Assembly (NCBI GenBank): GCA_010692425.1
Contig: JAAHHJ010000010.1
Coordinates: forward strand, 112,402-176,401
Source of the DNA: Symploca sp. SIO3C6
GTDB taxonomy: Bacteria > Cyanobacteriota > Cyanobacteriia > Cyanobacteriales > Coleofasciculaceae
Reading direction: 5' to 3'
DNA length: 64,000 nucleotides
The position numbers and the translations under genes were made by a program. Each line of letters starts with the position of its first letter. The first letter of the stretch is position 1. Shown in pieces: positions 2,418-60,765 of the stretch. The notes below the pieces were generated by a model that was not told where the DNA came from, searched no databases, and saw nothing but the letters and a program-made list of their open reading frames with translations.

Positions 2418-3200
2418 TTATTTTGTCTCCGGAAATTTTCGCTGATGCACGTCATCACTAAAGTCTTGCACCGCCTGGGTAATTATTTGTCGTAAGTTAA
2501 CGTAAGACTTGGCAAATGGTGGCAAACGCTCTGATAATCCTAGTAAATCAGAGGTTACTAGCACTTGACCATCACAATGTACTCCTGCACCGATTCCAAT
2601 TGTAGGAATTGATATCTTTTGGGTAATTTTCAGTGCTAAATCAGCTGGGATATGTTCTAATACAATGGCAAAGGCACCAGCATCGGATAGGTTGACCGCT
2701 TCTTGTAATATCCTCTCACTAGCTTCGAGGGTTTTTCCCTGTTGGCGGTAGCCTAACTGATGCACTGACTGGGGTGTTAAGCCCACATGACCCATTACCG
2801 GGATTCCTGCGGCTGTTAGTTTAGCAACAGTTTGGGCAATTATAGGGTATCCTCCCTCTAATTTTACTGCCTGTGCACCAGTTTCTTTGAGGACTCGACC
2901 TGCAGTCTGCAAGGCTTGCTGTGGGCTTTCTTGATAGCTCATAAAGGGCAAATCACAGACTACCAATGCTCGTTTTACTCCTCGACATACTGCTTTAGAA
3001 TGATGCAGCATTTCCTCTAGTGTGACTGGCAGTGTGGTTTTATAGCCTAAGGTCACCATTGCTAGGGAATCACCGACCATAATAATATCTACTCCCGCCT
3101 CGTCTAACAACTGAGCGATCGCATAATCGGAAGCTGTTAGCACTACAATTGGACGCCCATGCTGTTTCCATTTTTTCAGCTGCTGGATATTAACGGTCAT
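2418..3200 (-). CDS. panB: 3-methyl-2-oxobutanoate hydroxymethyltransferase
   Basis: A 260-aa protein of the usual PanB length. It transfers a hydroxymethyl group from methylenetetrahydrofolate to 3-methyl-2-oxobutanoate to make ketopantoate, the first step of pantothenate/CoA synthesis, in the cytoplasm. Recognisable segments: [18 protein letters not shown] near the start, the metal/substrate site [25 protein letters not shown], and [15 protein letters not shown]-like [13 protein letters not shown], followed by [16 protein letters not shown]. No other pantothenate gene is adjacent. Transcribed alone on the minus strand, facing the DUF5132 pair. Assignment is firm. Confidence 0.95.
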
Positions 3201-3240
3201 CTTAGCTGCTCCCTTGTTCCCAGAATATACAAATTTTAGA

Positions 3241-3286
3241 TGGGGGAAGGGGGAGATGGGGAGAGGGGGAGATGGGGAGAGGGGGC
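3241..3286. repeat. G-rich minisatellite (GGGGAGATGGGGAGA type)
   Basis: Near-perfect tandem of gggggagatggggaga units between panB and the CHAT/NB-ARC gene. The same motif, in either orientation, recurs at 7682-7730, 8956-9008, 44988-45057, 45960-46074, 47326-47385, 56561-56600 and 60399-60417/60501-60530. Confidence 0.85.
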
Positions 3287-3406: not shown

Positions 3407-6400
3407 ATGCCTCTCAGCTTCTCTTTTGCTCTCGGTCAAAATCAAACCTTTGATTTACGCTGCAATTATGGTACTCGTCGCTTGGATACAACGGCGTTAG
3501 CAAGTTTAATAAATTTGTGTGAAGAAAAATACTATTCTAGTAATTACAATGATGCCTCCCAATTAAAGAGGATTGGGCAACAGTTGTATCAATGGTTGGA
3601 TGGTAAAGAGGGCTGGTTACGTCAGGCTTTAGAATCAGATAGTGAAGGTCGAATTTACCTCGATTTAATTAAAACTAGTGAAGCACAGGCTTTAAATCCT
3701 GAAACCCAGAAAGTAGCTTTAGGGTTGGCACATTTGCCTTGGGAATTATTACATAATGGTACAGTATTTTTACATAATATTTTGCCTGTGCGGACGGTGC
3801 AACAGTGCCAGCAGGATGTAATTGCTGTGCAAAATCGTCCGTTGCGTTTGTTGTTTATGGCGACTTCTCCAGAAGATATTAAGCCGATTTTAGATTATGA
3901 ACAGGAAGAGGCGAATATTCTTGAAGCCACTAAAAAGCAGCCTTTGGGGTTGGTGGTGGAAGAAAGTGGCTCGGTAGAAGAATTAAAAAATTTGGTGCAA
4001 TCTTATCCAGAAGAACATTTTGATGTGTTTCACCTCACGGGGCATGGGGTGATTTATACGGAACAAGATTATGGCTATTTGCTGCCCGAGGGTAAGAAAA
4101 TTACAGATTATACGCCCTGTTTCATCACTGAAGATGAGGTGGGGAATGTAGAATTAACTACTGCTGAAGATTTGGGTAAGGTTTTTAAAAAACGTTTCCC
4201 CAGGGTAATATTTCTTTCTGGCTGTCACACTGGGCAAGGGGCGAATCAAGGGACTGTTCCCTCAATGGCGCAGGCTTTGGTAAAAGCTGGTGCGGGTGTG
4301 GTTTTAGGTTGGGCGCGTCCAGTTTTTGATAGAACTGGTATTATTGCTGCCAAGTCCTTTTATCTGGCCTTGGCAACGGGGGCGACGGTGGAGGATGCGG
4401 TAAAAGCAGCACAGTTAGAGATGATTGAGCAGGAATGCTCTGATTGGCATTTGTTGCGAATTTATCGGGATACTCGCCCAATTGAGGAGTTGGTAACACC
4501 ACTGAGAACAAATAAACGAGAAAAGCTGACATACACCCCACCGGAAACGGAATTTTTGGATGAAAATAGTCTTGTTAAAGTTGCTAGTCGGAGGGAATTT
4601 GTTGGACGTAGACGCCCTTTACAAAGATGTTTAAAAGCATTGCAGGAAACTAGCGATAATATTGGTGTTTTTATTGCTGGGATGGGTGGTTTAGGTAAAA
4701 GTTCTCTAGCAGCGCGGTTATGTACTCGGGTGCAGTCGCAACGGGAAAATTTTCAGCGAGTGGTGTTGATTGGTGTTGTTGATGAGGTGGGTTTATTAAA
4801 TAAGCTTGCTAATAAATATCAACGCTATGCTGATGTGCCTGGGTTATTGAATGAGCCTGGTGTTTCTCTACAGGGGCGATTACAGAACTTTTTTGATGTT
4901 ATTGAAGATAACTATAATCAGCCTTTGTTATTGGTTTTGGATGATTTTGAGCAGAATATTCCTCAAGGGAATATCGAAGATGGTAGTTTGCGGATGACTG
5001 CGGAAACTTATAGGCTTTTAGAAGCTCTGTGTGCAGCTTTGGCAGAAAATCAAGCTGAAAGTCGGTTAATTGTTACCTGTCGCTATCTCAAAGAAGATAC
5101 TTTACCGCCCCATTCCTTACATTTGGAAAGTTTAGCCGCGATGGGGAAGGGAGATATTAATAAAATTGTCCGAGATTTGGATGAGAGAGTTAAGCAACAG
5201 ATACAACAACAGAGGTTAATTAACATCGCTGACGGTAATCCCCGTTTGTTGAAGTGGTTATTGGATGTGGTGAAGCAACCGGGGATAGTTGAAGATGAGT
5301 TATTGAGTCAGTTGGAAGCGGTGGAGTTGAAGTTTCGAGAGAATATTTTGGCTCAGGCACTGTTGGCAGGTTTGGAGGAAGAAGAAAAGGAATTTTTAGC
5401 ACGGTTAAGTGTGTTTCTGTTGCCCGTGACACAGGAGATAATAAAAAATCTCTCTCCAAACCCTTCTGCTGCGAGCAGAGAGTCTTTAAATGCTCCCTCT
5501 TGCCTACCAAAATTGGTGAGTCTTAGTCTTGTGGAATCTGCCACAACCTACGAGCAGCAACAGCCAGAATATCGCGTGACGAGGATTTTAGAATCCTTGC
5601 TGCAATCGGTATTAACCAAGGAAGAATGGCAAACCACCAGGAAAGTCGCTACCCAGAGTATTTATAAAACTTGGTGGGAAGATAGGGAAAATACCTATAA
5701 CGAAGAACAAGCGCGAGAAATTATCAGGTTAGCGCTGTTGGCACAAGAGCCAGAAATCTCCTTCACTGTTGGGGATATTATCGCCAATTATTGGGTCAAT
5801 AGTAGCCGCTATCTGGAAGCGCTGGAATTATGTAAGGAAATTCTTCAGTTAGGGAAAGATTACCGGATTTTGGGAACTATTGCTAGGGCAGAACACATTT
5901 TGGGTTTTGTGGCAGAGGCGCTGAGGCATTATCAAACAGCTTTGGAATTTTGCCCAGAGGATAACTTTAAAGAAAAAGCCGCTACCCTGCACAACATCGC
6001 TCAATTAAAGGCCCAACAGGGAGAGCTCGAAGAAGCCTTGGCTCTTTATCAGCAATCTTTACAAATCCAAGAATCCATCAACCATGTTAGAGGCAAAGCC
6101 GCTACCCTGCACAACATCGCTCAATTAAAGGCCCAACAGGGAGAGCTCGAAGAAGCCTTGGCTCTTTATCAGCAATCTTTACAAATCCAAGAATCCATCA
6201 ACAATGTGGGAGGCAAAGCCGCTACCGTGCACAACATCGCTGATTTAAAAGCCCAACAGGGAGAGCTCGAAGAAGCCCTGGCTCTTTATCAGCAATCTTT
6301 ACAAATTGAAGAATCCATCAACAATGTGGGAGGCAAAGCCGCTACCGTGCACAACATCGCTGATTTAAAAGCCCAACAGGGAGAGCTCGAAGAAGCCCTG

Positions 6401-7360
6401 GCTCTTTATCAGCAATCTTTACAAATCCAAGAATCCATCAACGATGTGCAAGGCAAAGCTGCTACCCTGCACGCCATCGCTCAATTAAAAGCCCAACAGG
6501 GAGAGCTCGAAGAAGCCCTGGCTCTTTATCAGCAATCTTTACAAATCAAACAATCCATCAACGATGTGCGAGGCAAAGCTACTACCCTGCACAACATCGC
6601 TCAATTAAAAGCCCAACAGGGAGAGCTCGAAGAAGCCATGGCTCTTTATCAGCAATCTTTACAAATCAAACAATCCATCAACAATGTGCGAGGCAAAGCT
6701 GCTACCCTGCACGCCATCGCTGATTTAAAAGCCCAACAGGGAGAGCTCGAAGAAGCCCTAGCTCTTTATGAGCAATCTTTACAAATCCAAGAATCCATCA
6801 ACGATGTGGGAGGCAAAGCTGCTACCCTGCACAACATGGGTTATTTGGAAGGGAAAAGGGGCAATAAAAGCAAACAGTTAGAATTATGCTTAGAAGCAGC
6901 TCAAATCCTCGCACAAATCGGCGCTTACATTAATTTACACCAGGTATTAAAGAACTTAGGCGTTACTGATGAAACCAAAGGAATCATCTACTTAGCTCAA
7001 GCCCTGTGGCTTTGTCTGCGGGTGCAAATACCTTTGACAGCTAGTGTAGATACTATTAGGTCAATGTACGATATGATACCTCAAGGTGATGAGATGGAAG
7101 CCTTATTGGGTACAACTGCAATCTATTTATGTCAGACTCGCGGTGCCCAACATCCGCAGTTAGAGGAATTGCAAGAGCAAAGTGTCCAGATTTTATCAGG
7201 TGCAGCAGTTGCCCAGGAAATTGAGACAAAGGAAGCATTTGAAACTTGGATTGTGCAGCAAAATTTGAAGGACCCTGAATATTTTATCCCGCGATTAGTT
7301 GAAAAATTAGAGGAAATAGTCGGGGATGAGTGGTTATTTGACAGGCAAAATAACCTTTAA
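3407..7360 (+). CDS. CHAT protease - NB-ARC/STAND NTPase - TPR protein
   Basis: A 1317-aa three-part protein. Residues ~100-340 form a CHAT (caspase-like) domain with HLTGHG (209-214, catalytic His213) and SGCHTG (catalytic Cys273). Residues ~395-560 are an NB-ARC/STAND NTPase: P-loop GMGGLGKSS (425-433) and Walker B LLLVLDDFE (507-515), followed by helical/winged-helix regions. From residue 857 there are seven almost identical 40-aa TPR units and one partial. No signal peptide or membrane helix is seen, so it is likely cytoplasmic. In STAND families the TPR array senses a ligand, the NTPase drives oligomerisation and the protease executes; that role here is inference. It has no obvious operon partner. 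Ribosome site is weak. Domain calls are firm; ligand and substrate unknown. Confidence 0.9.
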   Translation: MPLSFSFALGQNQTFDLRCNYGTRRLDTTALASLINLCEEKYYSSNYNDASQLKRIGQQLYQWLDGKEGWLRQALESDSEGRIYLDLIKTSEAQALNPETQKVALGLAHLPWELLHNGTVFLHNILPVRTVQQCQQDVIAVQNRPLRLLFMATSPEDIKPILDYEQEEANILEATKKQPLGLVVEESGSVEELKNLVQSYPEEHFDVFHLTGHGVIYTEQDYGYLLPEGKKITDYTPCFITEDEVGNVELTTAEDLGKVFKKRFPRVIFLSGCHTGQGANQGTVPSMAQALVKAGAGVVLGWARPVFDRTGIIAAKSFYLALATGATVEDAVKAAQLEMIEQECSDWHLLRIYRDTRPIEELVTPLRTNKREKLTYTPPETEFLDENSLVKVASRREFVGRRRPLQRCLKALQETSDNIGVFIAGMGGLGKSSLAARLCTRVQSQRENFQRVVLIGVVDEVGLLNKLANKYQRYADVPGLLNEPGVSLQGRLQNFFDVIEDNYNQPLLLVLDDFEQNIPQGNIEDGSLRMTAETYRLLEALCAALAENQAESRLIVTCRYLKEDTLPPHSLHLESLAAMGKGDINKIVRDLDERVKQQIQQQRLINIADGNPRLLKWLLDVVKQPGIVEDELLSQLEAVELKFRENILAQALLAGLEEEEKEFLARLSVFLLPVTQEIIKNLSPNPSAASRESLNAPSCLPKLVSLSLVESATTYEQQQPEYRVTRILESLLQSVLTKEEWQTTRKVATQSIYKTWWEDRENTYNEEQAREIIRLALLAQEPEISFTVGDIIANYWVNSSRYLEALELCKEILQLGKDYRILGTIARAEHILGFVAEALRHYQTALEFCPEDNFKEKAATLHNIAQLKAQQGELEEALALYQQSLQIQESINHVRGKAATLHNIAQLKAQQGELEEALALYQQSLQIQESINNVGGKAATVHNIADLKAQQGELEEALALYQQSLQIEESINNVGGKAATVHNIADLKAQQGELEEALALYQQSLQIQESINDVQGKAATLHAIAQLKAQQGELEEALALYQQSLQIKQSINDVRGKATTLHNIAQLKAQQGELEEAMALYQQSLQIKQSINNVRGKAATLHAIADLKAQQGELEEALALYEQSLQIQESINDVGGKAATLHNMGYLEGKRGNKSKQLELCLEAAQILAQIGAYINLHQVLKNLGVTDETKGIIYLAQALWLCLRVQIPLTASVDTIRSMYDMIPQGDEMEALLGTTAIYLCQTRGAQHPQLEELQEQSVQILSGAAVAQEIETKEAFETWIVQQNLKDPEYFIPRLVEKLEEIVGDEWLFDRQNNL
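5975..6838 (+). repeat. Seven tandem 120-bp coding repeats (40-aa TPR units)
   Basis: Exact 120-bp periodicity with units starting at 5975, 6095, 6215, 6335, 6455, 6575 and 6695, then a partial eighth. Long blocks such as gcccaacagggagagctcga are identical in every unit. Variation clusters at a few codons (for example NHVRG, NNVGG, NDVQG, NDVRG at the unit end). DNA-level identity indicates recent expansion or gene conversion. Confidence 0.95.
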
Positions 7361-7681: not shown

Positions 7682-7730
7682 TTCCCATCTCCCCATCTCC
7701 CCATCTCCCCATCCCCCCTCTCCCCCTCTC
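7682..7730. repeat. Minisatellite (CCCCATCT type)
   Basis: Tandem ccccatct units with a tccccctctc tail, immediately beyond the stop codon of the propeller gene. Same family as the G-rich minisatellite at 3241-3286, opposite orientation. Confidence 0.85.
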
Positions 7731-7734
7731 TTCT

Positions 7735-8856
7735 TCAAAAATCCGGTGCCTCTCTAACAAAAGCCAAATGAGGCCTAACACGCCCAGTAGTTTGACTTAC
7801 CCAAGCCAGCCCTTCCGTAGTTCCCACCCACAGCTTATTCCCCGTATCAGGAGACAATGCCAAGATACGTTTAGAGGGAAGATTTGGGATCTGAGCAAGT
7901 ATCGCTCCGCTGTCAGCTTTTAACTTGAACAAGCCATCATCAGTACCAACCCACACATTACCATCTTGGGCAAAGCGCACAGAAGTTACATTACGCCCCC
8001 TCATAAGGGTAACAGAGCGAAGTACTTGGCGGGTTTGTGGGTCAATAACCAATAAACTATTAGGGGTGCCAGCCCAAAGTAGACCTTGAGGTCCAAAAGT
8101 CAAAGTTTGCACTGTTGTGACAGAGGAATTTTTCATACGACCAATGATAAAAGCACTGGCAGTATCCACTTGCACTAGACCCTCTAAAGTTCCAACCCAT
8201 AAATGACCTTCATCATCTAGAGTAAGAGTATTAGCACTAACACCGGGTAATTCTTGTAATGTAGTCATCAATAACCCTTGATCAGGGCTGATCATAGAAA
8301 GGCCGCGATCGCTACCTACCCAAAGAAAACCTCGATGATCAATTAGCAGAGATAAAACTCGCTTAGATGGTAAATTAAAGTTTTGGGCAGTAATTTTATT
8401 AATGCGAGGGTCTATACGCAACAAACCCTCATAGGTTCCTACCCAAATTCGTCCAACTCGGTCTTGGGCTAAAGCGCCAACAGTGTAGTTAGGCAAGCCA
8501 ATACGATTCAACAAACGTCCAGTGTTAGGGTTAATTCTGGCTAACCCCAGCCACGAACCCACCCAGAGATCACCAGTGTAATCTGGTTGCAAAGCACTGA
8601 CCCGAAAATCCTTGGGCAGAGGCTGATTCTCTCGCCGCAGCCGTTGTTGAGGCAATGGTCTGTTTCCTGGCGGCGGTGGGTTAGGCTTATAGATAGGGGT
8701 TGAAAATTCTTGGTCGATGTAATTTTGTGCCAGAACTTGATCGGTAGATACTGGCAGCAGCATCTTGTACCTAACTTTTAAGACCGGTAAGTTCCACCAT
8801 AACAGTAATGTACCGATGGCAATACTAATCTGGGTACGGATGCTAAAAAAACCCAT
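7735..8856 (-). CDS. Seven-bladed beta-propeller protein (two-component-regulator propeller type)
   Basis: A 373-aa protein with an N-terminal signal anchor (ISIAIGTLLLWWNLPVL), a Pro-rich linker (about residues 55-85), then seven repeats of the form xLWVGTxxGLxxIDPxTG (DLWVGSWLGL, RIWVGTYEGL, FLWVGSDRGL, HLWVGTLEGL, LLWAGTPNSL, NVWVGTDDGL, KLWVGTTEGL). These are Reg_prop repeats, usually the periplasmic sensor part of hybrid kinases; here there is no kinase or output domain. The start at 8856 is chosen because aaggaggctcttg lies directly upstream; longer in-frame starts up to 9009 would translate a minisatellite. Probably a membrane-anchored periplasmic ligand-binding or scaffold protein; ligand unknown. 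Confidence 0.8.
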   Translation of the reverse strand: MGFFSIRTQISIAIGTLLLWWNLPVLKVRYKMLLPVSTDQVLAQNYIDQEFSTPIYKPNPPPPGNRPLPQQRLRRENQPLPKDFRVSALQPDYTGDLWVGSWLGLARINPNTGRLLNRIGLPNYTVGALAQDRVGRIWVGTYEGLLRIDPRINKITAQNFNLPSKRVLSLLIDHRGFLWVGSDRGLSMISPDQGLLMTTLQELPGVSANTLTLDDEGHLWVGTLEGLVQVDTASAFIIGRMKNSSVTTVQTLTFGPQGLLWAGTPNSLLVIDPQTRQVLRSVTLMRGRNVTSVRFAQDGNVWVGTDDGLFKLKADSGAILAQIPNLPSKRILALSPDTGNKLWVGTTEGLAWVSQTTGRVRPHLAFVREAPDF

Positions 8857-9435
8857 CAAGAGCCTCCTTTTGACACTTAATTTTAAGCTGTTAGGCATCT
8901 GGTATTGCAGTTTCGACCGTTTTATGTTTAAGGAAAGGAAAACTCTAATATCATCCCCCCTATTCCCTGCTCCCCATCTCCCTCCCTCCTCATTTACTCT
9001 GCTCCCCACCTAATCCTATGAAGCTTATTTAGGTCTTAAAGCGTACAGAATACGAATTTGCAATCAACTGTAATAAAAAGTTGTAATTCTTTGCCTTCAT
9101 AAAACGAACTTATATATTACTAAAGATTTTTTTGCGTTTAACTTATTACATTCCTGGTATATTTCAAAAAGATTAAGAAATCCAAGGAATTACCTCAGCC
9201 GCTCTTGCGATCGGCAAAACTTTCATATGCTGATAGTTTTCGCAGATAAATATTTGAGGTAGTCCCATGGGCAATTTAATGTCATGGGAGTTTTGGGTGT
9301 GATGTTGCCCCCAAACAAGGCTAATTTGTGAGCCTGGACAAAAGATTTTAGTTTTGAGAATTCAGAGCAAAATCTACAACAGAAAACATCGACTTAAACT
9401 GTCCCAACATTCAGTAGTTTCCAAGGAAGGAAAGC
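8857..9435. other. Divergent intergenic region and rbcL leader
   Basis: No credible gene in 579 bp. It starts with a C-rich minisatellite (8956-9008), continues AT-rich (9050-9180), and ends with the rbcL leader. The promoter of the rbc operon must lie here, but I could not assign a -10 or a regulator site with confidence. A hairpin at 9263-9289 is listed separately. The rbcL ribosome site aaggaagg is at about 9423-9430. Confidence 0.6.
9263..9294 (+). promoter_or_regulatory. Terminator-like hairpin in the rbcL leader
   Basis: Inverted repeat tcccatg (9263-9269) / catggga (9283-9289) followed by g and tttt, about 145 bp before the rbcL start codon. It looks like a weak intrinsic terminator or attenuator. 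The role is inference. Confidence 0.35.
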
Positions 9436-42477: not shown

Positions 42478-42685
42478 AATTCTTAAACCAGGATAATTTT
42501 TGACCTCTTAATTTCCTATTAACCTACCTTCCCTGCTGCCTATTTGCTTAATTATCAATACAGTCTATCTTTGGTTTTTGCTTAGGTCAACTAATAAAAC
42601 TTATATAAAGTTCATAAAATTTTCCCTGACCATACTAATAACTTAATGGGGAAGTTACTATCGTGGGACTTTAGTGTGTATTTTT

Positions 42686-43453
42686 ATGAAAAAACTACCA
42701 GCATTTGCCCTCATTAGTACAGTGGTATTTTTGATAGACCTTGAATTAGCGTCGGCTCAATCATTCCACCTCAACTCATTTATCACTCAAGATCCAGTCC
42801 CCACCATCCTCTTCAATCCACCACCAAAGGATGAAAAACCGGACAAAACTACGGGAGCAGGGTCACGAGATGAGCGACAATGTTCTCAGGATACCCAAAA
42901 CAATTTTGCTCAGACACTATTACCACAGCCTGCACTTCAAGCACTTGTTCCCAACGATAATTACGGCGTAACCTTTTCAGAGCGTCCAACCTTGTGGGTG
43001 TATATTCCAGAAACTTCAGCTAAACAGATAGTTTTAAGCCTGAAAGAGGAAGGCATCAAACATCACTCCCAAATCTTTCTCCCCATTACCGGAATTTCTG
43101 GTATCTTTGGATTTAAATTGGGGGAAGAATCACCACCTCTAGAAATCGGGAAAAGTTACCAGTGGGCAGTGGTAATGGTTTGTGGAGATCAACCAAGCCC
43201 AAATGACCCAGTAACTACTGCTTGGATTAAGCGAATTACACCATTACAGCCACTGGATGATTCACTCAGTTGGCTAGAGCAAGCTGTTTGGTATGGGAAA
43301 CAAGGTATTTGGTATGATGCCCTGACAGCATTGGCTCAGGCTAGACAATTACAGCCTAATAATAGTAAGCTAATGAAAGACTGGGCAGATTTTCTATCTT
43401 CTGTTGAGTTAAAGGCGATCGCTACTGAACCCCTAGAGCCAATTACCGACTAA
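42686..43453 (+). CDS. DUF928 secreted protein
   Basis: A 255-aa protein with a signal peptide (FALISTVVFLIDLELASAQ), a Pro-rich linker (PPPKDEKPDKTTGAGSRDE) and a DUF928 domain (~85-250): YGVTFSERPTLWVYIP, GKSYQWAVVMVCG, and WYDALTALAQARQLQPN. Function unknown. In cyanobacteria DUF928 genes commonly sit beside CHAT-TPR and haemagglutinin-type genes, as here (from memory). The ATG at 42686 is preferred to GTG at 42674. Its 3' end overlaps the convergent CHAT gene by 21 bp. Confidence 0.85.
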   Translation: MKKLPAFALISTVVFLIDLELASAQSFHLNSFITQDPVPTILFNPPPKDEKPDKTTGAGSRDERQCSQDTQNNFAQTLLPQPALQALVPNDNYGVTFSERPTLWVYIPETSAKQIVLSLKEEGIKHHSQIFLPITGISGIFGFKLGEESPPLEIGKSYQWAVVMVCGDQPSPNDPVTTAWIKRITPLQPLDDSLSWLEQAVWYGKQGIWYDALTALAQARQLQPNNSKLMKDWADFLSSVELKAIATEPLEPITD

Positions 43454-46126
43454 TACAAAAGCAGACCAGTAAGCTGGATGTTGGTATTGGGGGGATTTTA
43501 ATAGTGATAGTTGCGCCTGACGTAGGGCTTCAGCTTTGGTAACACCTGGTTGTTTGAGAGCTTTATACAACTCAATCATTAACTTGGTGGTGGAATCGTC
43601 TTGAACTGACCAGAGCGCTGCCATGGTACTACGGGCACCAGATCTCAGTGCAACTCCAGCCAGTCCTAGTGCTGCTCGCTTATCTCCAGCAGCAGTTTGA
43701 CAAGCACTCAAGATTAACAGCTCAATTGGTCTTTTGTTTTGACGTTCGCGGACTTGTAGTAATTGGTCTAAGTCTTTGACGTTAATACGACCATCCCAAG
43801 TTAGTAAAAAAGTTTTTTCAGCTTGGGAGGAAAATTGACCATGTGTGGCTAAGTGTACCACAGGAAAAGATGTTGAGTCAATTTTGACCTCAAGTCGGCT
43901 GCGAGTAAAGTCTTGATTAAGCAAGACATCTGCTGGTACTAACTTAGCAATCTGCTCCACTTCTTCAATAACACCAGGGAGAGCCGAAAACCCTTGACGA
44001 GGCTCAGATAATCCCCCTGCCAGGGTTTCCAATTGTTCTGGTTTGAGTAATTGTGGTGGTAGGAGTTGCAATCCTGGTGTTAGAGCCAAATTATATTTCT
44101 CTATTAAATAGTGCTGACGGTCATGAAGTGCCGCCATGGGTATACCACGTAGCACCCCATCTAGGACAAAAACTAAAGTCTTGACACCACTATTTTGCAG
44201 TTGCTGCTCAACTGGACGGATTAACCAATCATACAGTTGTTGGTGGGGACGTAGAGGTTCTGAGTTAGAAATAAATGGGTTTAAGGTGGCGAATAAATCA
44301 TCAAAGGTACGTTCTAGTAATACAGAGGCATTTTCCTGATGATCAGAATTATCAGAAATTAAAATAGTGTCATAGTAACGCAGTGGTTTTCCAGGAACAG
44401 AAAGAATAACTGCAAGGCGGTCTGGTAGAATAATGGAGTAGAATACTGCCGCTTTCGGATCAACCTGGTCAATTTGTTGAGGTTGGGCATCAAAACAGAT
44501 TTCTCGAAAGAAGTTATTAAGTTGGGCCAGTTGTAGAGCTTCAATTACCTCTCTCGCACGTCGCAAGTTAGCCTGAGAAGGTTCATTTTTTAATAGCAGT
44601 TGTACCAATTGACGATAAATAGGCTCAACTTTATCTCGAAAAGCAAAGCCTACTTCCGGGTTGAGTGCTACCAAATCACCCCTTAGTTGGGACAGGGTTT
44701 CAAAGGCTTGATTATAAGCATTAATCGCTTCAGTAATAAGTCCCTGTGCTGCTAGAATTCGACCAAGCTGCCATTGCCAAGAAATAGCAATATCTTGGGC
44801 ATTACTCTCGACAGCGATTAACAAAGCTTGTTGTGTCAACTTCTTTGCTTGTTGCCGCTGTTTATAACTTTCATACAAATGTCCTAACTGACCTAAAGCA
44901 TAGGCTTCAGCCCTTTGGTCTTGCAACACCCTCGCCTCAGAAACTGCCTTAATCAAAATCTGAGCAATATCCTGGAAATCATTAAACCTCCCCCTCTCCG
45001 CGTCTCCGCGTCTCCCCATCTCCCCCTCTCTCCCTCTCCCCCTCTCCCCATCTTCCCAGCGCTTTATTTTAATCAGATTTTCCGCTAGATTCACTCGGGC
45101 ATAGACAGTTATACGACTTGGTGGTATTTCCTCAAGGAGTGATTTAATCGTCGGTAATATAGATATGGCTTTGCTAATTTCATTAGCATCCACCAGCAGA
45201 CTAAACTGATTTAATTGCACCTGAAGTTGAAGAGAAGGTTCAAAAGCCAACAGTGCAGCTTGTTGGTAAAAAGCCTGCGCTTTTTCAAATTCCTGTCTAA
45301 CTCTAGCAACATTCCCCAACTCCATAAGTGTTTTACTGATAGCGGCTTCGTCATTAAGGCTTTGAGATATTTTCAAACTCGATAGCAAAGCAATTTGGGC
45401 TGGTTGGAAGTCACCAACCCTCAGTAGGGCTATGCCTAAACTGTGCAAACCATTAGCTTTGAGGGGTGAATCGGGAAACTGTTGCAGTTGAGCATTAATT
45501 TGCTCTAAAACTATCTTGGCTCGTCGATATTGTCCCAGAGTTTGTAGAGCTTGGGTTTGGTTGAGTTGAGTGCCTATTGTGCCAATTTGATCACCAACAG
45601 CAGTATAGGCGGCTTCACTCTGTTTCCAGGTTTCGAGGGCTATTTTACTTTGTCCTTTTGCCAGTTGGATTGCTCCTTTGTTATTTAAAGTTTGGGCAAG
45701 GAGCAGTTGAGATGAGGGGTTATTTTTTAGAATAGCGATCGCTCTATCAATAGCTACTGATGCTGCTTCCCATTTTCCTAAGTCTCGATAAACAAGGGCT
45801 AAATGGTTCCAAGTTTGTATTTGTTTGGGTATATTTCCTTGAGTAGTGTATTGCTGGAGTGCCTGTTGCCAAATCTTGGCGGCTTGAGTTAATTTTCCTG
45901 CTCTGTAGAGAGTTTTACCTTGCCTGAATAAATTTGAAGTCTGCTCCTCTAGAGAAGTTAGGAGGGGAGAGGGGGAGACGCGGAGATGGGGAGATGGGGA
46001 GAGGGGGGGAAGGGGAGACGCGGAGATGGGGAGATGGGGAGATGGGGAGAGGGGGGGAGGGGGAGAGGGGGAGAAAGTTATAAGTTTTAGTGATAGTGTC
46101 AAAATGCTTAATAGGGATGGATACAT
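43433..46126 (-). CDS. CHAT-TPR protein with minisatellite insertions
   Basis: An 897-aa protein. An N-terminal hydrophobic segment (SLLSILTLSLKLI) is probably a signal, followed by a Pro/Ser tract (residues 18-55) encoded by the minisatellite, a TPR array (~65-480), and a C-terminal CHAT domain with HLATHGQF (His762) and LSACQTAAG (Cys809). Both catalytic residues are present. A second minisatellite block encodes a Gly/Arg/Glu-rich stretch at residues 357-380 within the TPR region, keeping the frame. Overlaps the DUF928 gene tail to tail. Probably exported, unlike the other two CHAT proteins. No in-frame ATG follows the first block, so the start is unlikely to be later. Confidence 0.88.
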   Translation of the reverse strand: MYPSLLSILTLSLKLITFSPSPPPPLSPSPHLPISASPLPPLSPSPHLRVSPSPLLTSLEEQTSNLFRQGKTLYRAGKLTQAAKIWQQALQQYTTQGNIPKQIQTWNHLALVYRDLGKWEAASVAIDRAIAILKNNPSSQLLLAQTLNNKGAIQLAKGQSKIALETWKQSEAAYTAVGDQIGTIGTQLNQTQALQTLGQYRRAKIVLEQINAQLQQFPDSPLKANGLHSLGIALLRVGDFQPAQIALLSSLKISQSLNDEAAISKTLMELGNVARVRQEFEKAQAFYQQAALLAFEPSLQLQVQLNQFSLLVDANEISKAISILPTIKSLLEEIPPSRITVYARVNLAENLIKIKRWEDGERGRGREGEMGRRGDAERGRFNDFQDIAQILIKAVSEARVLQDQRAEAYALGQLGHLYESYKQRQQAKKLTQQALLIAVESNAQDIAISWQWQLGRILAAQGLITEAINAYNQAFETLSQLRGDLVALNPEVGFAFRDKVEPIYRQLVQLLLKNEPSQANLRRAREVIEALQLAQLNNFFREICFDAQPQQIDQVDPKAAVFYSIILPDRLAVILSVPGKPLRYYDTILISDNSDHQENASVLLERTFDDLFATLNPFISNSEPLRPHQQLYDWLIRPVEQQLQNSGVKTLVFVLDGVLRGIPMAALHDRQHYLIEKYNLALTPGLQLLPPQLLKPEQLETLAGGLSEPRQGFSALPGVIEEVEQIAKLVPADVLLNQDFTRSRLEVKIDSTSFPVVHLATHGQFSSQAEKTFLLTWDGRINVKDLDQLLQVRERQNKRPIELLILSACQTAAGDKRAALGLAGVALRSGARSTMAALWSVQDDSTTKLMIELYKALKQPGVTKAEALRQAQLSLLKSPQYQHPAYWSAFVLVGNWL
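44988..45057. repeat. Minisatellite inside the CHAT-TPR coding region
   Basis: Seventy bases of ctccgcgtctccccatctcc type repeats, opposite in orientation to the copy at 45960-46074 and translated in frame on the minus strand as a Gly/Arg/Glu-rich stretch. Confidence 0.9.
45960..46074. repeat. Minisatellite at the 5' end of the CHAT-TPR coding region
   Basis: About 115 bp of gagatggggagaggggg and gagacgcggagatgggg units, translated on the minus strand as Ser-Pro-rich residues 18-55. Confidence 0.9.
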
Positions 46127-46136
46127 ATTTTATTTA

Positions 46137-46169
46137 AGTAATAAGTAATAAGTAATAAGTAATAAGTAA
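46137..46169. repeat. STRR: AGTAATA heptamers
   Basis: Four perfect agtaata units and a partial, just upstream of the CHAT-TPR start codon. Same repeat as at 26725-26797. Confidence 0.95.
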
Positions 46170-46639: not shown

Positions 46640-47389
46640 AATTAGGATGACTCCTTTTCTAAGTTATTAGGAGCCAGAGCCAGCCCCCAGGTTTGGAAGG
46701 CTACGGGCTGGCTTCTGACTTTGTCGCAACTGCAATTGTTACAACAATTTTAATTTATCACTTAAGGCAAAAAATAACAAGTTGTTTTAATAAAAAAACA
46801 CATATCAAAAAGGCTTTATTTTGCAGAGGAAGCTGTTAGGTTGGATCAAGGCAGAAGGCAGGAGGCAGAGGGCAGAAGGGAATATTTATTCAAACTCAGT
46901 GGCTAATAGTAAAAGTTCATTAAAACTGAAATCTATGTAGAGCTAGGTTTTAGTCCTCTTTGAGAGGACTTTCACTATTAGACTGGGGTTTGAACCCCAG
47001 GCGGGTGAAGATATTGATGCAAGCTCTAAGTAAAACTCAGATTCTTAAAAATTATGGTTGGTAAGCTACTTTTACCGCCCAGAGTTCAATCTATGGGCTA
47101 ATAGCAGAAGTCCATTAAAATGGACTGGAATCTATATAGAACAATGATTTAGTACTCTTTGAAAATACTTTCGCCATCAGTCAGTGATTTAAATCGCTGA
47201 CTAGTTAATGGATATGTGAAAAATCTAAAGAAAATCCCTAAAAAGCCACTGTGCATCTAAATTGCACTATCTCAGTGTTTTAAAAAACTCTAACCAGAGA
47301 AAGGTAGAAAGTTTCTAAAAACCCTCTCCCCATCTCCCCATCTCCCCATCTCCCCATCCCCCCATCTCCCTCTCTCCCCCTCCCCTCCC
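46640..47389. other. Repeat-rich intergenic region with copies C and D of the double-hairpin repeat
   Basis: No gene in 750 bp. Copy C: agtcctct-ttg-agaggact (46952-46970), then ttcactattag, then ctggggtt-tg-aaccccag (46983-47000). Copy D, in inverted orientation: cgcccagagttcaatctatgggctaatag (split over 47083-47104), then agtccatt-aa-aatggact (47109-47126), and a further pair at 47179-47202. A minisatellite of ccccatct units (47326-47385) ends 4 bp before the next start codon. Confidence 0.75.
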
Positions 47390-50300
47390 ATGCTGCAATT
47401 CCTCTCCAAACCCTATCGCTGGATTAAAGGCAAATTTATCCGTCAACCAGGTATACTGGCATTAATTGATAAGTCTGTTGAGCAATTTCAGGTGCAGGAT
47501 TATCAAGGGGCTTTGGATTCTTTGAATCTTGCTGTTGAGAGATATCCAAATGACTACAGAGGTTGGTATCTTATTGGTTCATTCAGAAATCAATTTTATC
47601 AGTATGAAGAGGCAATATCCTTTTACGACCAAGCTTTAAAATTGAAACCTGACTATCACGATGCATGGTACAAACGGGGCATTGTGCTGTCTAAATCAGG
47701 TAGATTAGAAGAGGCAATATCCTCTTACGACCAAGCCTTAAAATTGAAACCTGATTTTTACTTCGCTTGGAACAACCGGGGCGTTGTGCTGAATGAATTA
47801 GGCAGATTTGAAGAAGCAATATCCTCTTACGACCAAGCTTTAAAATTTAAACCTGACTATCACGATGCCTGGAGCAACCGGGGCGTTGTGCTGTCTAAAT
47901 CAGGTAGATTAGAAGAAGCGATGTCCTCTTACGACCAAGCCTTGATATTGAAACCTGACAATCACAACGCCTGGAACAACCTGGGCATTGTGCTATCAGA
48001 TTTAGGCAGATTAGAAGAAGCGATGTCCTCTTACGACCAAGCCTTGATATTGAAACCTGACTATCACAACGCCTGGCACAACCTGGGCAATATGCTGTCA
48101 AATTTAGGCAGATTAGAAGAAGCAATATCCTCTTACAATCAAGCCTTAAAATTTAAATCTGACTATTTTGAAAGCTGGCATCAACGTGGCATTGTACTGT
48201 CAGATTTAGGCAGATTAGAAGAGGCAATATCTTCTTACAACCAAGCCTTAAAATTTAAACCTGACTATTTCGAAGTCTGGTACAACCGAACCTTGAGTCT
48301 AAATAAATTAGGAAGAATAGAAGAATCAATATCCTCTTACGACCAAGCCTTGAAATTGAGACCGGACTATTACGTAGCCTGGATGAACCGGGGCATTGTG
48401 CTGGATAAATTAGGCAGATTAGAAGAAGCAATATCCTCTTACGACCAAGCCTTGAAATTTAAATATGACTTTTACGAAGCCTGGAACAACCGGGGCATTG
48501 CGTTGAATAAATTAGGCAGATTAGAAGAAGCAATATCCTCTTACGACCAAGCCTTGAAATTGAAACCTGACGATTACGCAGCTTGGAACAACCGGGGCAA
48601 TGCGGCTGGAAAATTACCAGGTTATGACCATTTTCAGCAACAGCAGTTTGTCGAACTATTTCGTTTAGAAGTCAGCAAAGCTCCTCAAATATTAATTCCT
48701 ATTCTAAAAAGCACTAATTCCGAGCAAATCCTTAACCAGTTCCAAACCTCCCTCAATACCTCTACAGAACTACTGCTAAATATCTTTGCTAACCTTGACG
48801 CCCCAGAATTAATTACCCAAATCCAAAAACCACCTTCACCAGAACTAAGTCAAGTAATCCTAAAATCTCCACCACCAGAACTATTTAACTTTATTAAACA
48901 ACCCCTATCTGAAGAAGTTTCCGTACAACTAGCTCAAGATTTATTTTCCCATCCCCCTCACTTCAATCCTCAACTCAATCAACGAGGTTACGAGGGAGCA
49001 ATTGCTAGCTATAAGGCGGAACTTGATAAAGCCATCCGCCTAGAAACTCACCCCGAAGGATGGGGTAAATTACATCATGCTATTGGCAAAGAACACTATT
49101 TCCAAGGACGAAAGAATACTAAACCTTATTCTTTCTGGCGTAAAGCAGAAACTAGCTATAAAACAGCATTAAAAATCCCCGAATCTTCTGAACTTGAAGA
49201 GCTCCGCCTAGAAATCCTACAAGATTTAATTCAAGTATCAATAGACTTAAAAGAAATTGAGCAGGCGCAGGAATTACAAAGAATAGGAACAAGTCTTTTA
49301 CAACGCATGTTGGCAGACTCCAAACGTACAGAGCGCCAAAAGCAAAAACTCGCCCTCAACTCTTCTATATTTGATCAGTTAACAGTAGATTTAGCTATCC
49401 AATCTGGCGATATCTTCAGTGCTTTAAAGCTAGCCGAAACTGGAAAAAACACTTGCCTACGCTGGCTCTTAGGTATAGAAGAAATCCCCAACGTCGATTA
49501 TGCCCAAATTCAACAACTGCTCAACCCTACCACGGCAGCAATTTACTGGCATCTTAGCCCTAGCGCCCTGACTACCTTTGTGATTCTACCCGGTGCCACT
49601 GCCCCAGTTGTGATACCTGATGTTTCAGCTTATGTAGAAAAATCAACTGAGGTAGAGAATGGGGAGAATTCAAAGTCTCTCTCTTTGCAGGAGAGAGGTT
49701 TCAATGAAACAGAAGAGCAACATTTTGCTTCCTTACAACAAATCCTGGCATGGGAAAAATGGCTGGGACAATGGAACCAGCAATATCAAGATTATGGTAA
49801 TCCTAAGAGTAAGAAAGACTATCACGATAAAAAATACTATCCTTGGCGTAGTGAAATGGAGGATAGTTTAAAGAGTCTTACAGAAATACTCAATATCCCT
49901 GCGATCGCAAAATACCTGCAAACTTACCCTATCGATAACCTCATCTTAATCCCTCACCGAGATCTTCACCGCTTCCCCCTGCATTACCTATTCGATAACT
50001 TCACTTGCACTTATCTCCCCAGCGCCCAATTAGGTATCAACAAAATCGAATACTCCCCTCAGCCTCCAAAATCCAACCTTTTTAAAAACTCTCCTCAGCC
50101 TTCCTCAACAGACTTATTAATTATCGAAAATCCCAAAAGCACTATTGAAATTAACGATAAAACTAAACCCCTTGCCCCCTTACCCTTCGCCGAAGTGGAA
50201 GCCGCCCTTATCTCGAAAATGTCTTCCCAAGTCACCACCATTGAGAATAAAGATGCAAGCTATAGCAAAATCGAACAAGCCCTCAACCAACCCCATCAAA

Positions 50301-50839
50301 TCTTTCACTTCACCGGACATGGAGCCTACGATAGCACTAACCCTGCTCAATCCTGCCTCTTCTTGAGCGGTACAGAGCAGCTTACCCTAATCGACATTAT
50401 CAAACTAGACTTGAGTAACTACCACCTTGTCTGCCTCGCCGCCTGCGAAACCGCCATTACTGGCAAAGAAACTATTACAGATGAATATGTAGGGCTGGTT
50501 AGTGCCTTCCTCAAAGCTGGCGCTACCTATATAATTAGCACCCTTTGGACAGTAGAATCAGCTGCCAGCGCCCTACTAATGGTGGAATTTTACCAACAAC
50601 TACAGCATCAACAACCACCAGCCGCCCTCAAAGCTGCCCAAAACTGGCTTAAAAATACCAATCGCGATCAATTAATAGAGTGGCTCGATACTACTATTAC
50701 CAAATTATCAAATCAGCGATCGCCACGCCTTGTCCTCGAAGATGAGCGTGAGCTAATTAGTAAAATGGATAGTAACGAGAAGCCCTTTAGCCATCCTTAC
50801 CATTGGGCAGCCTTCACAATTTCTGGAATTTCTGGATAA
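47390..50839 (+). CDS. TPR-CHAT protein, first gene of a three-gene cassette
   Basis: A 1149-aa protein. A short basic start (FLSKPYRWIKGKFIRQPG), then a TPR array of exact 34-aa units (~55-400), a helical middle region (~420-680), and a C-terminal CHAT domain with HFTGHGAYD (His977) and CLAACETA (Cys1019), ending YHWAAFTISG, a typical CHAT terminus. Both catalytic residues are present. No signal peptide or NTPase domain. In known systems TPR-CHAT proteases are triggered by a ligand on the TPRs and cut a partner (e.g. Craspase on Csx30, or caspase-like activation of gasdermins). The two genes downstream on the same strand are candidate partners. No clear ribosome site: the minisatellite directly precedes the ATG. 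Confidence 0.9.
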   Translation: MLQFLSKPYRWIKGKFIRQPGILALIDKSVEQFQVQDYQGALDSLNLAVERYPNDYRGWYLIGSFRNQFYQYEEAISFYDQALKLKPDYHDAWYKRGIVLSKSGRLEEAISSYDQALKLKPDFYFAWNNRGVVLNELGRFEEAISSYDQALKFKPDYHDAWSNRGVVLSKSGRLEEAMSSYDQALILKPDNHNAWNNLGIVLSDLGRLEEAMSSYDQALILKPDYHNAWHNLGNMLSNLGRLEEAISSYNQALKFKSDYFESWHQRGIVLSDLGRLEEAISSYNQALKFKPDYFEVWYNRTLSLNKLGRIEESISSYDQALKLRPDYYVAWMNRGIVLDKLGRLEEAISSYDQALKFKYDFYEAWNNRGIALNKLGRLEEAISSYDQALKLKPDDYAAWNNRGNAAGKLPGYDHFQQQQFVELFRLEVSKAPQILIPILKSTNSEQILNQFQTSLNTSTELLLNIFANLDAPELITQIQKPPSPELSQVILKSPPPELFNFIKQPLSEEVSVQLAQDLFSHPPHFNPQLNQRGYEGAIASYKAELDKAIRLETHPEGWGKLHHAIGKEHYFQGRKNTKPYSFWRKAETSYKTALKIPESSELEELRLEILQDLIQVSIDLKEIEQAQELQRIGTSLLQRMLADSKRTERQKQKLALNSSIFDQLTVDLAIQSGDIFSALKLAETGKNTCLRWLLGIEEIPNVDYAQIQQLLNPTTAAIYWHLSPSALTTFVILPGATAPVVIPDVSAYVEKSTEVENGENSKSLSLQERGFNETEEQHFASLQQILAWEKWLGQWNQQYQDYGNPKSKKDYHDKKYYPWRSEMEDSLKSLTEILNIPAIAKYLQTYPIDNLILIPHRDLHRFPLHYLFDNFTCTYLPSAQLGINKIEYSPQPPKSNLFKNSPQPSSTDLLIIENPKSTIEINDKTKPLAPLPFAEVEAALISKMSSQVTTIENKDASYSKIEQALNQPHQIFHFTGHGAYDSTNPAQSCLFLSGTEQLTLIDIIKLDLSNYHLVCLAACETAITGKETITDEYVGLVSAFLKAGATYIISTLWTVESAASALLMVEFYQQLQHQQPPAALKAAQNWLKNTNRDQLIEWLDTTITKLSNQRSPRLVLEDERELISKMDSNEKPFSHPYHWAAFTISGISG
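47654..48571 (+). repeat. Nine tandem 102-bp coding repeats (34-aa TPR units)
   Basis: Exact 102-bp period from 47654, each unit encoding a variant of AWNNRGIVLxKLGRLEEAIS followed by SYDQALKLKPD. DNA blocks such as tcctcttacgaccaagcctt recur in almost every unit. A tenth partial unit follows. Variation is highest in the first codons of each unit (YHDAW, FYFAW, YFESW, YYVAW), the ligand-facing helix positions. Confidence 0.93.
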
Positions 50840-55640: not shown

Positions 55641-56126
55641 CTACAGCAGTCCTCCAACCACGTAGTCGAAGTAGGAGGCAGCCTCAGCAGCATCCTCTGC
55701 AGACAAGATGTTAGAGGCTACTGACTTCATGCAGCGGACGCTTTCAGCAACCGCATCAATGGAAGTGCCTAGAGACTTATACATTTCTTTAGCACCAACC
55801 AAACCAATTTCTTCAATCGGTGTGACATCACCAGCAACAACACCGTAGGTGACTAGGCGCAAGTAGTAATCCATGTCCCGCAAGCAGGTAGCTGTCATTT
55901 CCTCACCATAAGCATTGCCCCCGGGAGAAACGACATCAGGACGCTTCTGGAACAGTTGATCCCCAGCCTCTTTGACGATGCGTTCACGAGATTCTGTCAG
56001 GGTTTGAGCAATACGAAGACGCTGTTCACCGCTGCTAACAAAGCCCTTAATTCGGTCTAATTCACCAGGGCTAAGATAGCGTGCTTCGGCGTCTGCATTC
56101 ACGATTGATTTCGTGACTATACTCAT
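55641..56126 (-). CDS. apcA: Allophycocyanin alpha subunit
   Basis: A 161-aa phycobiliprotein. [20 protein letters not shown] at the start and [16 protein letters not shown] with the bilin-binding Cys (position 80-82 by family). Pairs with ApcB in core trimers that pass energy to ApcE and the photosystems. Strong ribosome site tggaggaa. Upstream of apcB and separated from apcE by a long leader. Confidence 0.99.
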
Positions 56127-56698
56127 TGATGGATTCCTCCAGAAAGAAAATATAACCAGGTTTGTTTAAACTGGCATTAACACTGAAATAATTGCTGAAC
56201 TCTGAGCTCTCCTCGCGTTAAGAACGACGAGGATTCAAGTGGTTGTTAAGGAGAGCCTTAAAATAACGCTCCTCGACGAGAGTTTCCCAGATTTTTCTTC
56301 TGGTAGGCACTCTCAAAGGTGCCCTACAGACCAAGGCTTTGCGTCAGCTTAACTGTATCCCTACTTTGGCTAGACTTACCCCCTGTCACAGCTCGAATAT
56401 AAATTCTAGTTGTTAGTTTTTTCACCAACTTTAACTAGAAATCAAAACTGTACATTTTGTTAGGGGTACAGCTACCTTCCGCAAATATTCTGCGACAGAT
56501 TGTTCACAATCTTACTGCGTCCGCAACATTTTGTAATATTTATCCTCAGATTCCTAGTAAGGAGAGGGGGAGATAGGGGGAGGGGGAGATGGGGAGATAA
56601 TTGATGATTAGTCTTGTATCTCCTGAACTCCTCACTCCTGACTTCTGTTTCCCACTCCCTTCTTCGTTGACAGACAGCTAACCAATTAAGGATGGCAA
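56127..56698. promoter_or_regulatory. apcE-apcA intergenic region with structured apcA leader
   Basis: 572 bp holding the apcA promoter and leader. Inverted repeats gctctcct (56206-56213) / aggagagc (56249-56256) enclose cctcg...cgagg (56211-56215 / 56228-56232); a third ctcctcgacgagag follows at about 56269-56282, so alternative pairings are possible. A minisatellite lies at 56561-56600, near the apcE stop. No gene seen. Confidence 0.45.

Positions 56699-60765
<4,067 letters not shown>

Follow-up and report, generated by a model that had tools for sequence, protein, structure and literature searches.

Filamentous cyanobacteria carry short tandemly repeated heptamers, known as STRR, that have been described as intergenic or intronic. 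Another kind of dispersed repeat, the Rickettsia palindromic elements, consists of palindromic units of fixed length that reside in frame within functional genes, where they are translated at tolerated sites. G-quadruplex heptamers of the types GGGNATC and GGGGA(C/T)T have been described from Xanthomonas and Nostoc (Rehm 2015, PMC4692102) and, according to the parts of that report considered here, the G-rich heptamer of Nostoc PCC 7120 is 68% intergenic and roughly one third intragenic.

The stretch of DNA analyzed here, below referred to as the window, comprises 64,000 nucleotides from Symploca sp. SIO3C6, whose genome (G000) is a single draft of 7.49 Mb in 289 contigs, with filamentous cyanobacteria as its relatives. 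The gene of interest occupies positions 43433–46126 on the minus strand, starts with ATG, and encodes 897 residues in a frame that is open through two arrays of a G-rich octamer. Pfam matches to TPR_12 (E 4.2e-24) and CHAT (E 2.1e-63 at residues 626–895; 43442–44251) agree with a TPR-CHAT architecture, i.e., N-terminal TPRs and a C-terminal CHAT domain. The protein begins with a signal-like hydrophobic segment (codons 1–17; 46076–46126; helix 2–16 in the AlphaFold model), and secondary structure in the model together with the TPR matches defines a helical TPR region at model residues 54–540 (44507–45967). The CHAT domain includes His762 and Cys809, which we take to be its putative catalytic His-Cys pair; both columns are invariant in an alignment of 28 sequences. 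The model has a mean pLDDT of 69 and is poor in the CHAT half, where the underlying alignment is thin. A heptamer array of TAAGTAA units is located at 46135–46169, 8 bp upstream of the start codon, giving three arrays of two families in or beside the gene. On the opposite side, a DUF928 gene (42674–43453) converges on the CHAT gene with an overlap of 21 bp, and the identical gene pair and overlap are present in the orthologous locus L001 of a same-genus genome (G001).

The N-terminal octamer array (codons 18–55; 45964–46074, minus strand) has a C-rich sense strand and contains 13.9 copies of the 8-bp unit, with Tandem Repeats Finder rows scoring 138 to 173. The internal array (codons 357–380; 44988–45057, minus strand) lies in the opposite orientation, has a G-rich sense strand, and contains 8.8 copies, with scores of 84 and 98. 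One of them reads FSPSPPPPLSPSPHLPISASPL... and the other WEDGERGRGREGEMGRRGDAERGR. An earlier, sequence-only reading of this DNA had placed one minisatellite in frame at both sites, inverted at the second, with Ser/Pro-rich residues from one strand and Gly/Arg/Glu-rich residues from the other; the placement, within an intact frame, is confirmed, and the residues are Ser/Pro-rich at the N-terminal and Gly/Arg/Glu-rich at the internal site. Most of the two arrays is modeled with low confidence, with pLDDT values below 50 at residues 13–53, 369–371, and 373–381, adjoining confident helices. The internal array is positioned where helices 338–366 and 378–401 of the TPR region join, and its first third (residues 357–366) is modeled as the end of the former helix. 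For the mRNA of the internal array, the energy model predicts −31.5 kcal/mol with quadruplexes, compared with −7.6 kcal/mol without.

Matches to GGGGAGATGGGGAGAG with at most two mismatches occur 26 times in the window, compared with a mean of 0.03 in 100 shuffled sequences. An intergenic array of the same family at 47325–47379 precedes a second TPR-CHAT gene (47390–50839, plus strand); it stops 10 bp short of the start codon and thereby occupies the place where the ribosome-binding site of that gene would be expected. Further members are found at 3238–3285, between open frames 2418–3200 and 3407–7360, at 7684–7730, between frames 3407–7360 and 7735–9009, and, as a short array, at 56564–56594, between frames 55641–56126 and 56699–60037. 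Frame 3407–7360 also contains, at 5975–6837, about seven 120-bp repeats (94% matches) that resemble recently duplicated TPR-like modules.

Genome-wide, CTCCCCATCTCCCC is present in 617 copies on the two strands of G000, compared with 3 for the reversed control. Array locations were counted in 834 kb of the genome (C1 complete, C2 to base 176401), using gene calls from our own simple codon scorer. Of the 42 octamer arrays in this stretch, 13 are in gene interiors, 25 are intergenic, and 4 are at the ends of genes; at least two of the interior ones (C1:201279 and C1:417881) are located near a called gene end. The statement in the sequence-only reading that the repeat is otherwise intergenic was thus wrong. 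Since 79% of the stretch is coding by the same gene calls, and only 13 of 42 arrays are interior, octamer arrivals in coding DNA are strongly depleted but not rare. Octamer arrays or variants of them form the edges of some contigs in both genomes (G000:C1, at its start; G001:C119, C148, C185, and C188), so that the arrays seem to break assemblies and true copy numbers may be higher than those counted.

As for the heptamer families AAGGCAG and TTCCCAA, the octamer is free of stop codons on either strand, and each strand of these three families encodes a single cyclic peptide whichever frame is read, because neither 7 nor 8 is a multiple of three; the residues are therefore set by orientation alone. 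In the 834 kb, interior arrays account for 13/42 of the octamer and 4/16 of the AAGGCAG arrays, compared with 1/41 for TAAGTAA and 0/22 for the AACAATG type, both of which have stops on at least one strand (octamer versus TAAGTAA, Fisher p = 0.0007; versus the AACAATG type, 0.0026). Stop codons do not account for the filter entirely, since a 15-mer family that is also stop-free is interior in 0/14 arrays, which is rarer than for the octamer (Fisher p = 0.025).

The G001 genome matches Symploca sp. SIO2E9, as its locus L008 is 100% identical over 4551 bp to L001, a locus from the record of that strain. The orthologue encoded there is 84% identical to the TPR-CHAT protein in the window, and its start (ATGTATCGCTCC...) is clearly homologous to that of the window gene. 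Its N-terminal linker is an arrayless segment of some 25–30 residues, compared with 111 bp of octamers in the window, and, judging from the alignment, part of a G001-type linker seems to have been replaced by the array rather than cleanly split. Most of the more distant homologues have an ordinary signal-peptide-like start and no array. L002–L004, which the tree places as the closest outgroup, do not cover the N-terminal linker, and it is G001 together with the more distant homologues that make the N-terminal array probably a recent gain; loss in G001 is the less likely alternative. A composite of 31 bp from this array occurs in G000 only within the array itself, twice at a spacing of 40 bp, consistent with local duplication rather than with copying from another array; its eight further copies are all in G001. 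A single donor array was therefore rejected for lack of a second place for the composite in G000, and no donor is named.

At the internal site, octamers are present in both the window gene and L001, but the segment between matching flanks measures 225 bp in L001 and 72 bp in G000. The additional 153 bp in L001 include a 7-bp array of the TTCTGCC type between two copies of a GGGGGGATGGCTCGGGGAGA block. The internal linkers of L002–L004 are short and arrayless, and the internal array was thus probably gained before G000 and G001 separated; from these alignments it would be older than the split and still changing. The spread had been described as recent, which holds for the N-terminal array, absent from G001, but not for the internal site, occupied in both same-genus genomes. 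The L001 alignment revealed neither terminal inverted repeats nor a target duplication at either array, but with the N-terminal site apparently replaced and the internal one filled in both genomes, neither offers a clean empty site for this comparison.

The presence of Gly/Arg/Glu residues at the internal site in both genomes of the genus could be taken to mean that the arrays encode an ancestral, conserved low-complexity domain whose similarity at the DNA level is a by-product. The DNA unit, however, recurs hundreds of times in G000, mostly outside genes, and the residues are not conserved among 31 aligned homologues (34 loci were taken, of which L032 and L036 had no frame passing the filter and L008 duplicates L001). 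The alignment suggested earlier, with an orthologue lacking the insert, was possible for the N-terminal array with G001, and orthologues encoding the same residues with unrelated codons were looked for and not seen, in agreement with the arrays being a DNA minisatellite. On the basis of the orthologue and homologue alignments we reject the conserved protein segment, an explanation to which we attach next to no probability.

Outside the linkers, dN/dS between G000 and L001 is 0.18 for the TPR part and 0.10 for the CHAT part; values inside the linkers are uninterpretable. Judged by these ratios, selection on the host gene is purifying on either flank of the internal array and in the sequence that follows the N-terminal array, and the protein is thus maintained in these parts. 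This maintenance is, at the sequence level, the best available evidence that ribosomes may read through the arrays. Four in-gene sites of period 7–8 can be compared between G000 and G001, and their length differences (0, 33, 153, and 180 bp) are all multiples of three, although the 180-bp difference contains much non-array sequence.

The unit of the N-terminal array is itself not a multiple of three, and in silico loss or gain of one unit introduces an early stop, at codon 68 or codon 59, so that slippage by a single unit could toggle the CHAT protein, as in a contingency locus. A position near the gene start is typical of such phase-variation switches, a point for which the parts of PMC4692102 considered here cite Lin and Kussell. 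The array is degenerate, however, with 85% matches and a longest perfect run of just 29 bp (3.6 units), and the internal array is likewise non-triplet in spite of its location in the middle of the gene. Furthermore, no frame-shifted orthologue was seen, although one homologue (L032, G005:C885) is listed with an internal TAA. A switch function therefore appears very improbable.

The same two linkers are used repeatedly in the TPR-CHAT family. The full set of 54 proteins, including that of the window, consists of 32 as ranked by the search and 22 from loci added later as paralogues from G000 and G001, matches broken at a linker, or a long frame (L214), and the latter are biased toward inserts. 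Arrays of period 7 or 8 number 32 in 22 of these proteins, with 18 at the N terminus, 14 at the internal linker, and none elsewhere in the gene. Four of the N-terminal arrays (in L016, L195, L209, and L211) lie upstream of the aligned start and may be non-coding. All 28 within-gene arrays of the partly insert-biased set are thus in the two linkers, as are all 15, in 8 proteins, among the 32 proteins as ranked. Unrelated repeat families are found at identical linkers in relatives, including the AGATGGGG octamer and its GACGCGGA form, AAGGCAG, TTCCCAA, CAAACAA, TTGAAGG, CCAATCC, TTAACAG, and others. Mapped on a single, quick tree built from columns without either linker, with array labels entered by hand and one family per row, array presence requires at least nine changes at the N-terminal and at least four at the internal site; 19 of the 51 inner branches have support below 80, and the well-supported branches alone would force fewer changes.

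This recurrent use of two linkers by several families could indicate that the repeats are retained as a diversification device, tuning linker length, charge, or oligomerization of the CHAT protein. We regard such selection as unlikely, given that Ser/Pro, Gly/Arg/Glu, Phe-Pro-Ile, and Asn/Gln peptides interchange in the TPR-CHAT linkers, which suggests tolerance, and that 32 of the 54 proteins have no array of period 7–8. A loop in an RND efflux pump and, at least in its octamers, a linker in a SelD fusion protein behave similarly and again suggest tolerance. In the RND loop of L148, from the related genus g2, about 34 tandem copies of AATTCCC (L148 1277–1517) encode (FPIPNSQ)n in frame where G000 has octamers. 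The SelD fusion carries its array between its two enzyme parts, and the octamers in this linker follow a different order in G000 and G001 at equal total length (60 bp each). The SelD-linker peptides of L128 and L132 are presumably typical of other dispersed repeats. Octamer hosts in G000 include the RND pump (two octamer arrays and one heptamer array), an HlyD protein, a TPR-GT41 (GT41) protein, the second TPR-CHAT protein, a PMT protein, and the SelD fusion, and an ABC permease carries a heptamer array. Because the RND, SelD fusion, GT41, HlyD, PMT, and ABC permease proteins all carry arrays, targeting specific to CHAT proteins is not claimed.

Evidence for spread between loci is provided by a variant of the octamer. 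The unit CTCCCCATCTCCCC is present in 41 of 57 genomes searched, at 1 to 950 copies, but of 20 genomes searched for the variant GGGGATGGCTCGGGG, only G001 has it, in 120 copies; G000 is among the 19 that lack it. Three of the G001 copies are in the internal linker of the TPR-CHAT orthologue. The variant has thus spread recently between loci, including into a coding linker, in one lineage. In 776 kb of G001, 12 copies are found at 10 places, from which we estimate, by scaling up, that the 120 copies represent about 100 places. Three places were compared with G000, where one is empty, one has a different, arrayless spacer, and one has an array without the variant. At the empty site 114 bp are missing, and AATATAA is present at both ends of the G001 insert; at C2:96247, as in the TPR-CHAT gene, G000 has an array that lacks the variant. 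Empty and altered sites together therefore imply that arrays arrive at new places and that those already present change.

As for the route of movement, the octamers might reach coding DNA solely as cargo of MITE-like elements. Shared MITE-like ends were found at 3 of the 10 GGGGATGGCTCGGGG places, and further arrays lie inside other inserts absent from the sister genome (sites 75 and 111). At the other seven places, which include the TPR-CHAT gene and one site at a contig edge, no ends are present in the flanks examined; neither TPR-CHAT array has ends, and a 55-bp octamer-type array in G001 (site 121) faces an empty G000 site with no other insert. Transport by such elements alone is, accordingly, an explanation that we consider unlikely. 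The mobile-like spread proposed in the sequence-only reading is supported as regards movement between loci, by the GGGGATGGCTCGGGG distribution, but not as regards transposon ends at the arrays. The MITE-like element with ends GGGATATTTTTTTATTTGGAAGTCCC and CCAAGAAATAAATTATCCAATTTACTTGG has internal octamer arrays at G001:C2:151112, C10:10916, and C5:8562; with up to three mismatches, each end has 7 near-matches in 776 kb of G001, compared with 0 and 1 in 834 kb of G000. A separate element of about 100 bp with AAGGCTCC/AAGGCAG units recurs at G000:C1:321394, C1:561334, and C2:72134, and its copy at C1:321394 is absent from G001; a heptamer family may thus be riding in a small mobile element.

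Based on these observations, we consider it probable that a high-copy, G-rich octamer minisatellite disperses between loci and is tolerated within genes at disordered linkers, where its net length is a multiple of three. Stop-free minisatellites would disperse by some copying route, possibly template switching or recombination between G-rich arrays, with some arrays hitch-hiking in MITE-like elements. An array would land or expand in a linker and, if translated, contribute a peptide with a presumably near-neutral effect. Most coding arrivals would be purged, and those with lengths of 3n in disordered linkers would persist. A more speculative proposal, which we regard as rather unlikely, is that non-triplet minisatellites open in all six frames constitute array-level mobile DNA without ends of its own, copied by a dedicated or hijacked reaction driven by G-rich structures, with protein linkers as its coding niche. 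If so, such DNA would be a main source of new linker sequence in proteins such as CHAT sensors, transporters, and fused enzymes of filamentous cyanobacteria. The preferred explanation, tolerated dispersal, suggests a candidate rule for gene-colonizing repeats, namely a stop-free strand, a unit that is not a multiple of three, and a disordered linker. With sites that are empty, filled, or altered between G000 and G001, the spread of the repeat and its cost to proteins become testable. A further caution concerns annotation, since a low-complexity linker in a cyanobacterial protein may be a dispersed DNA repeat, and some contigs break off inside such linkers.

Compared with STRR, the octamer arrays are similarly short, non-triplet, tandem, and dispersed, and the TAAGTAA, AACAATG, and AAGGCAG families of G000 resemble STRR; the arrays of the TPR-CHAT gene differ in lying within what appears to be a translated frame. 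The N-terminal array resembles a Rickettsia palindromic element in being inside a gene, absent from the orthologue, and compatible with the frame, but it is a tandem array of variable length with no fixed ends, in place of a palindromic unit of fixed length. Phase-variable simple sequence repeats also comprise non-triplet tandem repeats near a gene start; the differences are the short perfect tract, the second array in mid-gene, and the frame kept in both G000 and G001. The closest likeness in sequence type, as far as the passages considered extend, is to the heptamers of PMC4692102, which are short, G-rich, high-copy units dispersed on both strands with possible G4 folding, but with a 7-bp unit instead of the 8 bp of GGGGAGAT. 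Neither "in frame" nor "amino acid" occurs in the main text of that report, and its passages considered here describe neither encoded peptides nor a location in linkers. In a literature search that covered mainly the openings of abstracts, nothing was recognized on in-frame minisatellites in cyanobacterial linkers. Given the intragenic Nostoc heptamers in the same partly consulted report, the translation of a minisatellite is not in itself new in kind. Three features appear to be new within our searches, namely the reuse of two linkers by unrelated repeat families, the frame-independent peptide combined with filtering by stop codons, and the spread of an octamer variant, in one lineage, into a coding linker.
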